A DNA stretch of 64,000 bases from Brachybacterium paraconglomeratum. GTDB taxonomy: Bacteria > Actinomycetota > Actinomycetes > Actinomycetales > Dermabacteraceae. How positions within the stretch are numbered: the stretch's first letter is position 1; the number at the start of each line of letters is the position of its first letter. The position numbers and the translations under genes are program-made. The stretch covers positions 186,001-250,000 of the forward strand of contig NZ_ML133851.1 of assembly GCF_003994255.1 (NCBI RefSeq). Direction: 5' to 3'. The notes under the pieces were generated by a model. It saw only the letters and a list, made by a program, of their open reading frames with translations. It had not been told where the DNA came from and searched no databases. Below are positions 3,270 to 55,753 of this stretch, piece after piece.

Positions 3270-5210
3270 TCAGACCAGCTCGATGCGGGCGCCGGGGTCG
3301 TTCATCACGATCACCGGGGTCACGGTCGGGTGCCCGGCCGCACGGATCGCGGCGAGGTCGGCGCGCAGCAGCGGCGTGCCGGCGACGACGCGATCACCGG
3401 TCGCGACGAGGGTCTCGAAGCCGTGCCCCTTCATCTCCACAGTGTCCAGGCCCACGTGGATCAGCACCTCGACGCCGTCCTCGAGGGTCAGCGCGACGGC
3501 GTGACCGGTGGGGAACACGTGGGCGACGGTGCCCTCGGCCGGGGCGAGCACGAGCCCGTCGCTCGGCTCGATCGCGATGCCGGGACCCATGACCCCCTGG
3601 GCGAAGGTCGGGTCCGGCACCTGGTCGAGCGGCACCGAGGTGCCCTCGACGGGCCGGCGCAGGCGCACGAGGGAGGAGGCCCGCAGCGCCGTGGCGCTCC
3701 CGCCTCCCGCCTCGTCGGCGTCCTGCTCCTCGAGGGCGCGGACGTCCTCCTCGGCGACGGGCCGGTCCGTGCCGCTCATGATCCGCTCCATCGCGTCCTT
3801 CACGAACTGGACGGAGGTCCCGTAGATCACCTGGACGGAGTGCCCGCCGGGCTTCATGGTCCCGGCGGCGCCCGCGCGCTTCAGCGCCGCCTCGTCGACC
3901 TTGGAGACGTCCGCGAGCTCCATCCGCAGGCGCGTCGCGCAGTTCTCGAGGTCGGTGATGTTCGAGGCGCCGCCGAGGGCGGCGAGGAAGGCGGTCGCGG
4001 TCGCGGCGTACCTGCCGTCGCTCGCGGCGTCCTCCCCCTCGACCCGGCCGTCGAAGGAGTCGTCGCGGCCGGGGGTCTTCAGGTCGAACCTGAGGATGAT
4101 CCAGCGGAAGGCGAGGAAGTAGACGGCGAACCAGAAGATTCCCATCAGCGGGATCGCCCACGGGTTCTGCGCCATGGGGTTCACCCAGCCGAGGACCAGG
4201 TCGATGAACCCGCCGGAGAAGCCGAAGCCCATCCGCACCGGCAGCAGCGCGCTGATCGCCATGGAGATGCCGGTGAACAGCGCGTGGAGCACGTACAGGC
4301 CGGGGGCGAGGAACATGAACGCGAACTCGAGCGGCTCGGTCACGCCCACGAAGAACGCGGCGACGGCGCTGGAGAAGAGCACGCCCGCGGCGACCTTGCG
4401 CCGCGAGGTCCTCGCGGTGACGTACATGGCCAGGGCCGCACCGGGCAGTCCGAACATCATGATCGGGAAGAAGCCGGTCATGTACTGGCCGGTGACGCCG
4501 TAGGTGCCGGAGCCGTCCAGGAAGTTGCCCAGGTCGTTGATGCCGGCCACGTCGAACCAGAACACGGAGTTCAGCGCGTGGTGCAGTCCCAGCGGGATCA
4601 GCAGGCGGTTCAGGAAGCCGTAGAGGCCCACGCCCACCGGCCCGAGCGTCAGGATGAACTCGCCGAAGGCGACCAGCCCGCCGAAGGCCAGCGGCCAGAC
4701 GAAGAACAGCACGAGCGCGAGCACGAGCGAGAGGCCCGCGGAGACGATCGCGACGGAGCGGCGACCGGAGAAGAAGGCGAGGGCGTCCGGCAGCTCGGTC
4801 TCCTTGAAGCGGTCGTAGGACCAGGCGCCGATGAGGCCGCACAGGATGCCCACGAAGACGTTCTCGAGGTTCGAGAAGGCGAGGTCCACCTCCGCCTCGT
4901 CGATGCCCTGGAACAGGGCGACGTTCTCAGCGGACAGGAGCGTGGTCACCACCAGCCAGGAGACGAGGCCGGCGAGGGCGGAGGTGCCGTCGGGCTTGGT
5001 GGCCATGCCGAGCGAGACGCCGATCGCGAACAGCAGCGGCAGGTTGTCCAGGAGCGCGCCGCCGGCGGTCTGGAAGAACACGCCGACGAGGTTCGCGTCG
5101 TTCCCGGTGGCGGTGAGGATCCAGTAGCCGATGCCGCTGAGGATCGCGGCGACGGGGAGGACGGCCACGGGCAGCATCAGCGATCTGCCCAGGCGCTGGA
5201 AGAACTTCAT
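3270..5210 (-). CDS. PTS glucose/N-acetylglucosamine-type EIICBA permease
   Basis: A 646-residue membrane phosphotransferase permease that imports and phosphorylates a hexose or amino sugar. Order: EIIC membrane domain (about 1-400, starting FFQRLGRSLMLPVAVLPVAA), EIIB with the phospho-cysteine in ENCATRLRMEL (C424), and a C-terminal EIIA with HVFPTGHAV and the active histidine in VEVLIHVGLDTV (H585). All three domains look intact, so only EI and HPr from elsewhere are needed. The ATG is preceded by GAGAGG; upstream in-frame codons are non-coding in character. Exact sugar (glucose, GlcNAc, maltose) is undetermined. Confidence 0.9.
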   Translation of the reverse strand: MKFFQRLGRSLMLPVAVLPVAAILSGIGYWILTATGNDANLVGVFFQTAGGALLDNLPLLFAIGVSLGMATKPDGTSALAGLVSWLVVTTLLSAENVALFQGIDEAEVDLAFSNLENVFVGILCGLIGAWSYDRFKETELPDALAFFSGRRSVAIVSAGLSLVLALVLFFVWPLAFGGLVAFGEFILTLGPVGVGLYGFLNRLLIPLGLHHALNSVFWFDVAGINDLGNFLDGSGTYGVTGQYMTGFFPIMMFGLPGAALAMYVTARTSRRKVAAGVLFSSAVAAFFVGVTEPLEFAFMFLAPGLYVLHALFTGISMAISALLPVRMGFGFSGGFIDLVLGWVNPMAQNPWAIPLMGIFWFAVYFLAFRWIILRFDLKTPGRDDSFDGRVEGEDAASDGRYAATATAFLAALGGASNITDLENCATRLRMELADVSKVDEAALKRAGAAGTMKPGGHSVQVIYGTSVQFVKDAMERIMSGTDRPVAEEDVRALEEQDADEAGGGSATALRASSLVRLRRPVEGTSVPLDQVPDPTFAQGVMGPGIAIEPSDGLVLAPAEGTVAHVFPTGHAVALTLEDGVEVLIHVGLDTVEMKGHGFETLVATGDRVVAGTPLLRADLAAIRAAGHPTVTPVIVMNDPGARIELV

Positions 5211-53763: not shown

Positions 53764-54222
53764 ATGACCATGACCACTCCCGCAGGCCACTCGCCCGAGC
53801 AGCAGAGCTTCTACGACGCCGTCGGCGGCGCGCCGACCTTCGCCCGGCTCGTCGAGCGGTTCTACGAGGGCGTCGCCGAGGACCCGCTGCTGCGCCCGAT
53901 GTACCCCGAGGAGGACCTCACCGGAGCGAAGCACCGCCTGGAGACCTTCCTCGCCCAGTACTGGGGCGGGCCGAAGACCTACGGCGCCGAGCGCGGGCAT
54001 CCGCGGCTGCGGATCCGCCACGCCCCCTTCCCCGTCTCGCCCTCGGCGCGGGACGCCTGGCTCCGCCACATGCGCGTGGCCGTCGACGAGCTCGAGCTCG
54101 CGCCGCTGCACGAGCAGACCCTGTGGGACTACCTCGAACGGGCCGCCCACTCGATGCTCAACACCGTCGACGGCGGCGAGGCGCCCGCGGCCGGGCAGCA
54201 GGTCCCCGACCGGCTCGCCTGA
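53764..54222 (+). CDS. glbO: Group II truncated haemoglobin
   Basis: A 152-residue 2/2 globin of the TrHbO type: [80 protein letters not shown]. The proximal His lies in IRHAPFPV and the conserved Trp in the G helix region is AWLRHM. Binds O2/NO; role in oxidative or nitrosative defence is by family. The last conserved gene before a lower-GC segment. Two tandem ATGs follow GGAG. Confidence 0.92.
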
Positions 54223-54304
54223 GAACGGTCGATGGTTTGCTTTCCCCCCCCCGGCCTATGAGAGCGTCTGGGAACAGCATTCTTCATGAGAATCAGAGGG
54301 CCAC

Positions 54305-54568
54305 TTGAACACCCGCAATGCTGCAAAAGCGACCACACTGGTTGCGACCGCAATTCTTGCAATGACCGTCGGTCTCACGTCAGCCCATGCCGACACCAGC
54401 AAAGCTGCAACAGCGAATCCCATCGAGTCGACGTCGGCAACTGATTCATATCAGCAGTCTCTTACCGCAGAAGATGGCACCGTGGTCACCTTCACGCTCG
54501 ACCCAGCCGCACAGACATTGACCGTCACCAATACTCGGGGAGATCGAGAAGTGGTGACAGTCCCCTAA
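54305..54568 (+). CDS. Small secreted protein, N-terminal part
   Basis: An 87-residue product starting at TTG with SD AGAGGG 5-6 nt upstream. A clear Sec signal peptide ends TTLVATAILAMTVGLTSAHA, probably cleaved before Asp30; the mature part has a Ser/Thr-rich linker and a beta-hairpin-like EDGTVVTFTLDP / TLTVTNTRGDREVVTVP. Translation stops at TAA 54566-54568, but the same frame stays open and protein-like to 54808. GC content is about 55% here, far below the window average, and a C9 run (54244-54252) marks the left edge. Not recognised; likely acquired DNA. Confidence 0.6.
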   Translation: MNTRNAAKATTLVATAILAMTVGLTSAHADTSKAATANPIESTSATDSYQQSLTAEDGTVVTFTLDPAAQTLTVTNTRGDREVVTVP

Positions 54569-54808
54569 GACGTCCTGAGGGACCTCGCCTCGGACGCGGC
54601 CGCTGCCACGCCGGGCGCGATCTCACCCCAGCGAGTGAGCGTCGAGACATGCAAGAACATTCTCTCCGACGCAGGGTATGCCAATGGCATCGTGTGGACA
54701 CTTGCGACGATCGCTGCCGCACCGACTCTTGCAGGATCGCTCGTCGGGGCGGGAGCGCGCGTCATCACCTCAGCGATGATCACGGAAGCGGGACGTCTCT
54801 GCAAATGA
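54569..54808 (+). pseudogene. In-frame continuation past a stop codon (possible interrupted gene)
   Basis: In the frame of the preceding secreted protein, after TAA, the sequence reads on for 79 codons: DVLRDLASDAAAATPGAISP, then VSVETCKNILSDAGYANGIV, hydrophobic WTLATIAAAPTLAGSLVGAG and ITSAMITEAGRLCK, stop. Two cysteines bracket a hydrophobic helical segment. A separate start at GTG 54635 (57 residues) has no SD. Its stop forms an ATGA overlap with the next gene, which argues the frame was once translated. Either a nonsense-interrupted 167-residue gene or a separate small peptide gene. Confidence 0.5.
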
Positions 54809-55203
54809 ATGAATCCACCCCTGCCCGACAGGGTCAGCATACCGATAGGCGCCACCGTCTCGAACGGTGGTGGGCCGGACTCTCTCGGGCCAAAAGATTC
54901 CCGGTGATCGCGGCGTTGATCTTCATCCCTCTGGGACTGATCTCCACCGTGAGCTTCTGCCAGCTGATCCGCGATCCGAGCCTGGCGCCCGGATTTCAGT
55001 GGTCCGCGGCACTCCAGCTGGCGACGGGCGTGGCGTGCATCTTCTGGTACCGCTCGCCTGCCAAGAGCAGGCGAGCGGTGCTCGCACATACCGCACTCGG
55101 CGTGGCACTTCTTCTGAGCACCGGCTTCGCGCTGTACATAGGGATGCAGGCGCTGCGCGCGCAGGTTCTCGGTGTGGGCCTGCTGCAGGCTGCGGGGCTC
55201 TGA
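54805..55203 (+). CDS. Small three-helix membrane protein
   Basis: A 132-residue protein. A basic N-terminus (RRHRLERWWAGLSRAKR) precedes membrane helices FPVIAALIFIPLGLISTVSF, SAALQLATGVACIFWY and AVLAHTALGVALLLSTGFAL. It is coupled by ATGA to the secreted-protein frame and shares its lower GC, so the two look like a cassette. A membrane partner or self-protection protein for the secreted product is conceivable but unproven. Confidence 0.65.
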   Translation: MNESTPARQGQHTDRRHRLERWWAGLSRAKRFPVIAALIFIPLGLISTVSFCQLIRDPSLAPGFQWSAALQLATGVACIFWYRSPAKSRRAVLAHTALGVALLLSTGFALYIGMQALRAQVLGVGLLQAAGL

Positions 55204-55222
55204 TAGGTGGCCTCCACCGAAG

Positions 55223-55753
55223 TCAGTCCCGGAAGGTCAGCGGCTCGTCCGTGAAGGCGCGCAGCGACTCGCGGGCCTCCTGCTCGAGGCGGACCGGGGA
55301 GCCGGTCTCCGCGTCCACCAGCACCATGACGGTGCGGGCGCGGGCGTAGGGCGCCCTCCCCTCGGGGTCGTCGCGGGTGAGGACGAGATAGTCCGCGGTC
55401 AGGCTCGCCCCGCCGATCCGGGAGAGCCACAGCCGCACCACCACGCCGTCGCGGCGGTGGCCGAGCTGACGGACGTACTCGATGCGCTGAGAAGCGATGA
55501 CCGTGGCGATGTCCGTGTCCTCGGTACCGGCGCCGCTGACCGGCAGGGCGGCTGGCGGCTGCTGCGCCCCGAGCGCGAGCTGATCGGGCGCGGGCTGCCA
55601 GAAGGCCGCGATGCGGGCCTCCTCGAGCAGGCGCACCATGGCGGCGTTGTTCACGTGCCCGTAGGCGTCGAGGTCGGTCCAGCGCACGGGGACGGGCACG
55701 TCCAGCGGTGCGGGGTGCTCGGGTGTGGCGTCGGTGGTGATCGAGAACTGCAT
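55223..55753 (-). CDS. Acyl-CoA thioesterase, single-hotdog (4HBT) family
   Basis: A 176-residue hotdog-fold thioesterase. VPVRWTDLDAYGHVNNAAMV is the catalytic signature (Asp and HVNN) and ASQRIEYVRQLGHRRDG the second strand. The chosen ATG at 55753 lies 7 nt after TAGCAT; an in-frame ATG at 55762 is upstream. It is divergent from tesB with only 53 bp between starts. Hydrolyses acyl-CoA; chain length unknown. Confidence 0.87.
   Translation of the reverse strand: MQFSITTDATPEHPAPLDVPVPVRWTDLDAYGHVNNAAMVRLLEEARIAAFWQPAPDQLALGAQQPPAALPVSGAGTEDTDIATVIASQRIEYVRQLGHRRDGVVVRLWLSRIGGASLTADYLVLTRDDPEGRAPYARARTVMVLVDAETGSPVRLEQEARESLRAFTDEPLTFRD

Follow-up and report, generated by a model that had tools for sequence, protein, structure and literature searches.

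Class II bacteriocins with a double-glycine leader are small hydrophobic peptides, and a small immunity gene lies behind the gene for the peptide. Another arrangement is that of the SDP system of Bacillus subtilis, in which an exported precursor, SdpC, has an N-terminal secretion signal and a C-terminal hydrophobic toxin segment, and self-protection is provided by a separate integral membrane protein, SdpI (PMC6818787, available portions). The same portions of that paper describe related precursors, SdpC and its paralogue YitM, that are served by unrelated protectors (SdpI and YitQ, respectively), as well as strains that have homologues of sdpRI only (PMC6818787). The SDP type is known in actinobacteria too, because three Brevibacterium aurantiacum strains contain genes with weak homology to sdpABC (PMC5719810, available portions). 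Finally, immunity genes persist on colicin and microcin plasmids of E. coli from which the toxin gene is absent or on which it survives in a severely shortened form (PMC12546727, available portions).

Here we describe a two-gene locus of Brachybacterium paraconglomeratum, found in a 64-kb stretch of DNA that was analysed as a whole and that we call the window. Like SDP, it has a precursor with an N-terminal secretion signal and a hydrophobic C-terminal segment, both present in one frame by sequence and hydropathy, and a separate membrane protein; like SdpC and YitM, the related precursors that we found elsewhere have membrane partners that are not recognisably homologous between groups. Unlike SDP, the pair has no sequence match to any family model, the presumed peptide is bracketed by Cys and ends the protein (one residue short in the window), and in the window the partner gene starts within the end of the precursor gene, no regulator being interposed. 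No SdpA or SdpB model of NCBIfam was matched among four neighbours in the window and three ORFs around the intact pair described below. The likeness to the orphan immunity genes of colicin and microcin plasmids is that a putative partner is kept and the precursor is broken or missing, but here the bacteria and the protein families are other ones, the contigs look chromosomal, and the immunity function is a predicted one. As in class II bacteriocins, a small hydrophobic peptide would be followed by a small putative immunity gene; unlike them, the precursor has a Sec-type signal peptide and a long pro-region, and no ABC exporter was found among the scanned neighbours in the window. The accessible portions of the literature that we searched contain no description of this precursor/membrane pair.

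Results

A low-GC insert behind a globin gene

The locus (54223-55203) has on one side a globin gene that ends at 54222 (PF01152 by Pfam) and on the other, from 55223, a convergent thioesterase gene (4HBT_2 by Pfam). Its GC content is 61.9%, against 73.3% for the 64-kb window, and no other stretch of its length is as low (0 of 1261 stretches of 981 bp taken in 50-bp steps, with a minimum of 0.62). An earlier note on this DNA had put the GC after the globin gene at about 55%, which holds for the first ORF (55.7%) and its leader (57.3%) but not for the insert as a whole, the second part of the precursor being at 64.6% and the membrane gene at 64.9%. The GC3 of the parts of the insert is 0.56-0.76, compared with 0.94-0.98 in five neighbouring genes. 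The leader (54223..54304, + strand) begins directly 3' of the globin stop and carries an AGAGGG ribosome-site-like stretch (by reading) and, as the earlier note had remarked, a C9 run, located at 54244-54252, which is the sole homopolymer of eight or more nucleotides in the window. This run stands ~50 bp upstream of the precursor start, and its length could vary. No sigma-70-type promoter or terminator was matched within 54100-55350.

The globin gene is present in 37 of the 38 genomes of the genus, and we compared 30 loci, including that of the window. In 27 of the 29 other loci, the alignment to the globin and that to the thioesterase end 10-133 bp from each other, whereas 1007 bp separate them in the window. 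The window pair is therefore an inserted segment a little shorter than 1 kb, and it was probably acquired. One of the other two loci has no thioesterase within the stretch examined. By eye, no target-site repeat was seen around the insert. The last of the 29 loci, from another species of the genus (G018, L058:about 1962-2954), has an aldo/keto-reductase-like gene (by reading) at the globin-thioesterase junction.

A precursor frame with a stop and an open membrane gene

Positions 54305-54808 form a single frame of 167 codons before the final TGA, and codon 88 of this frame is TAA. The first part of the broken precursor gene (54305..54568, + strand) has a TTG start and encodes 87 residues, comprising a signal peptide (about 54305-54391, ending in ...TSAHA/D, with the cleavage site assigned by reading) and a pro-region cut by the in-frame TAA at 54566-54568; residues 9-27 form a hydrophobic segment by hydropathy. 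The remainder behind the TAA (54569..54808, + strand) continues in the same frame for 79 codons to the TGA at 54806-54808, in agreement with the earlier description of a signal-peptide protein that runs on past its stop. It contains a hydrophobic stretch between the Cys codons at 54650-54652 and 54800-54802, the second Cys being the penultimate residue of the frame, and we presume that this stretch is the active peptide. A low-confidence single-sequence model of the part behind the TAA has three helices, two of which lie between the Cys. A GTG at 54635 is a possible internal start that could give a 57-aa Cys-bracketed peptide, but by reading there is no purine-rich ribosome site directly upstream of it.

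The gene that follows (54805..55203, + strand) is open and encodes a hydrophobic small membrane protein of 132 residues, with homologues at two of the related loci (G020 and G033) and a fragment at a third (G008). Its ATG at 54805 overlaps the precursor TGA as ATGA, also as described earlier. That its product is a three-helix membrane protein, as had been proposed, is plausible only: a single-sequence model has an N-terminal helix and three long helices (pLDDT 67, pTM 0.35; low confidence), and hydropathy gives two clear hydrophobic regions. We regard this gene as the probable immunity-type partner of the precursor.

Seven related loci, one with an intact precursor

Searches with the precursor and the membrane protein gave seven related loci (G020, G157, G909, G895, G033, G988 and G008), which with that of the window (G000) make eight; the genome sets searched overlap, and the counts include the query genomes where these were drawn. 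The precursor had matches in 2 of 38 genomes of the genus, 2 of 47 of the family, 5 of 396 of the order (three by chance) and 1 of 396 of the phylum (the window's own), in 3 of 35 genomes of the genus of G157 and 3 of 245 of the family of G157 (one by chance), and in 1 of 30 of the genus of G988, judged to be chance. Matches to the membrane protein were found in 4 of 38 genomes of the genus, 4 of 392 of the order (one by chance) and 5 of 240 of the family of G157 (one by chance). The rejected candidates, all judged by the ORFs around the match, were G362, G395 and G117 (precursor search in the order), G929 (precursor search in the family of G157), G978 (precursor search in the genus of G988), and G990 and G259 (membrane-protein searches). 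Because profile A7 missed the remnant in G988, decayed copies elsewhere may have escaped these searches. Scans of genome contigs and viral contigs gave no relative, although the genome searches gave some.

The sole intact precursor is that of G157, in which one frame of 158 residues contains the signal peptide, the pro-region and the Cys...Cys C-terminus. An open small membrane ORF lies 22 bp downstream of its stop, with an AGGAGG site before it; the end of this ORF enters a palindrome with 22-bp arms and differs there from its relatives. The other loci have lesions that differ from one to the next, as decay would produce. In G020 the frame of the precursor is shifted at a G7 run that lies in the signal-peptide region; in G909 it carries a TAA, a frameshift and a TAG, the latter standing upstream of the last Cys; in G895 it is without a start and without the region of the first Cys, and its match, weak alone (E 5e-4), lies directly upstream of a membrane homologue. 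At all three of these loci the membrane ORF is open (93 aa in G909). G033 has a membrane homologue behind a superoxide-dismutase-like gene (by reading), with no precursor seen. Both genes are broken in G988, which keeps a C-terminal precursor remnant and a frameshifted membrane gene, and of the pair G008 retains just the 3' end of the membrane gene, interrupted by a TAG; the gene upstream of this remnant reads the same as a gene in G020, where Pfam assigns it a SWIM domain. The order of precursor gene and then small membrane gene is common to the window, G020, G157, G909 and G895, and is found as remnants in G988.

In G909 (L015:2553-5007) the decayed pair is located between inverted repeats of 213 nt (96%) and 69 nt (97%), beside a transposase-like ORF (L015:2549-3346, by reading), and sits between parB-like and thioredoxin-like genes (by reading). 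The repeats and the transposase-like ORF are a possible route of movement.

Homology of the precursors and of their partners

The part of the window frame behind the TAA is not a chance ORF, since it has 62% identity over 66 residues (E 8e-26) to G020, of the same genus, and the homologue behind the G020 precursor indicates the same for the window membrane ORF. The first parts of these two precursors share 29% over 41 residues, which is not significant (E 0.27), and conservation between them is highest in the C-terminal peptide. Plain BLASTP gave no match between the second part of the window frame and G157. However, the precursors of the window's genus and of the G157 group could be aligned by profile comparison (hhalign 91%, E 1e-6, 147 columns), which together with the same layout points to homology across both precursor halves. 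The bracketing Cys and an AG-AN-W core are common to the aligned window, G157, G909 and G020 sequences; the C-terminal peptides of the window and of G020 exceed a hydropathy threshold of 1.6, which those of G157 and G909 do not reach. Members of the window's genus have membrane proteins that are related to one another, and so do members of the G157 group, but between the two groups there is no recognisable homology (hhalign 0.2%), and we therefore speak of the same partner within groups only.

Where the window has its TAA, sense codons stand in the three alignable relatives (G020, G157 and G909), so that this stop is private to the window copy among the four compared. In three of these four copies, all of them broken (the window with GTG, G020 with ATG, and G909), an in-frame start is found 5-8 codons before the first Cys, which makes a leaderless peptide still conceivable, but in the intact G157 no start codon is found among the twelve codons that lead to the first Cys.

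Broken precursors and open partners

The precursor is intact at one of the eight loci and broken or missing at seven, whereas the membrane gene is open at six (Fisher two-sided p 0.041), eight loci being small numbers and those found through the membrane gene being biased towards its retention. Five loci (G000, G020, G157, G909 and G895) came from searches with the precursor and were not chosen for the membrane gene; among these the precursor is intact at one and the membrane gene open at all five (p 0.048). Five discordant loci have an open membrane gene with the precursor broken or absent, against none with the reverse (sign test p 0.0625). The frameshift in the G7 run of G020 may be a sequencing error, in which case two of the eight precursors would be intact. 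A codon-position test gave no separation between the broken precursors (position-3 share 0.42-0.52) and the membrane genes (0.32-0.47).

A second precursor pair in G157

Beside the intact G157 pair, and convergent with it, lies a second pair. It comprises an exported precursor (L016:2806-3549, + strand) of 247 residues, with a signal peptide and 8 Cys, of which the last 75 residues contain 6, and, 6 bp 3' of it, a hydrophobic membrane ORF of 58 aa (L016:3556-3732, + strand). No Pfam family matched this second precursor, and the best NCBIfam match was far below cut-off (E 0.008); we take it to resemble halocin C8 in style. Between the two precursor pairs there are two small helix-turn-helix-like ORFs (L016:3836-3988 and 4259-4411, by reading) in an inverted repeat (84%). 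The leaders of the precursors of the G157 group, and also that of the second G157 precursor, have in common AATCA...(hairpin)...CGAAAGG-like stretches before the start (about L016:5268-5427, complement; L016:2646-2805; L015:4311-4470, complement; and L020:1602-1761, complement). A leader hairpin before the ribosome site looked shared, but we do not claim it, as folding against shuffled sequences gave a mean z of -0.83 over six leaders, with two of the six at about 5% or below.

Searches of families, structures and mobile elements

With the window frame as query and E values of up to 10 admitted, neither Pfam nor NCBIfam, the latter including a model of SdpC, gave a family. The precursors of G157 and G020 had only matches far below cut-off in these two libraries, and none of the pair proteins scanned reached a curated Pfam or NCBIfam cut-off; the nearest models for the G020 membrane protein, both below cut-off, were DUF5985 (E 0.005) and a hydrolase model (E 0.002). 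PHROGs gave nothing below E 0.05 for four proteins other than the window precursor (best E 0.06), the G909 membrane protein matching a holin family at 0.92, and PADLOC nothing below E 0.05 for three, again other than the window precursor. No relative of the pair was found in plasmid collections or viral contigs, nor in a phage collection with the G157 precursor as query; one plasmid record at E 0.03 was judged chance, the match falling under a transporter gene. Profiles of both proteins had no convincing match among solved structures, one search giving a best E of 0.051 and the other no match.

Discussion

We favour, as a probable reading that leaves real room for others, that the window pair is a horizontally acquired two-gene antagonism locus in decay, in which a Sec-exported bacteriocin-like precursor has been lost and its immunity-type partner has been kept. 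Four results argue for a precursor and a partner of these types: the membrane gene is retained; it follows the precursor in the same order at five loci; conservation is concentrated in the Cys-closed C-terminus; and a second Cys-rich precursor with its 58-aa membrane ORF stands beside the G157 pair. The resemblance to bacteriocin/self-protection pairs that the earlier note had seen is strengthened by the intact G157 frame, which adjoins a membrane gene, and by membrane genes that are open elsewhere. Of the two possibilities that it had raised, decay is borne out by precursors of other relatives that are broken in other ways while the membrane gene stays open, and the production of two products from the interrupted frame is not. 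G157 does have the joined frame as one intact homologous gene adjoining a membrane gene, but no other such homologue was found, and the membrane partner there shows no recognisable relationship to that of the window.

According to the reading that we favour, the two genes would have arrived together, probably by horizontal transfer. The product of the first would be a precursor exported by the general (Sec) route. Once the signal peptide and the weakly conserved pro-region had been removed, its hydrophobic C-terminus would be set free as a peptide of ~50 residues, flanked by Cys and perhaps folded into a helical hairpin that a disulphide closes. This peptide would attack the membranes of competing bacteria, and the small membrane protein encoded by the second gene would protect its carrier. 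In the window strain the TAA cuts the precursor in the pro-region, and the full precursor is not expected; the membrane gene, being open, may still give resistance to producers, and selection for such resistance could explain why the partner is retained.

It is unlikely, in our view, that the pair is not antagonistic at all, the exported peptide serving instead at the cell surface or in signalling and the membrane protein being its receptor, a processing helper or an anchor, with random loss in relatives. Such a pair would sit well with the lack of a match to any known toxin or immunity family at its cut-off, and with the differing sequences of the membrane partners in the two groups. A receptor or helper should however decay together with its peptide, yet the membrane gene is open at five loci where the precursor is broken or absent, the reverse (precursor intact and membrane gene broken) is not seen among the eight, and the intact pair adjoins a second exported Cys-rich precursor pair.

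An error of sequencing or assembly, or an on/off state peculiar to this strain through phase variation at a homopolymer, with the gene functional in other cells of the population or species, appears somewhat less probable again. The G020 shift is located at a G7 run, the window leader has its C9 run, and the window genome is a draft (3.78 Mb, 30 contigs). But the window lesion is a stop and not a change of repeat length, and neither a switch nor a single error explains the three lesions of G909, the deletions of G895 and the remnant of G988.

We consider it very improbable that the stop is tolerated or meant, giving a short secreted protein and a C-terminal peptide made by re-initiation, read-through or in leaderless form. 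In favour are the single stop in a frame that is otherwise open, the good conservation of the C-terminal part, and the GTG at 54635, which has counterparts at nearly the same place in the broken G020 and G909. Against this, the TAA is private to the window copy, the relatives are broken elsewhere by other lesions, and G909 has its further TAG upstream of the last Cys.

A decayed antagonism locus could have a wider meaning, which we put forward tentatively. These loci may represent an undescribed actinobacterial family of Sec-exported bacteriocins, with a Cys-closed hydrophobic C-terminal peptide and exchangeable membrane immunity proteins, whose weapon has been lost repeatedly, so that most carriers would be resistant non-producers. 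If this is true, it adds a bacteriocin-like family that is absent from the four family libraries searched, and one found through its wreckage, as broken copies and their spared partners lead to the intact G157 pair. For the colicin and microcin plasmids the question has been posed whether it is the loss of a toxin or the gain of immunity that gives rise to orphan immunity genes (PMC12546727, available portions). For G000, G020, G909 and G895 toxin loss is indicated, because degraded precursors are still visible beside open partners, while for G033, where no precursor was seen, toxin loss and immunity gain are both conceivable. The loci described here would thus provide a small natural data set on toxin loss versus immunity gain.
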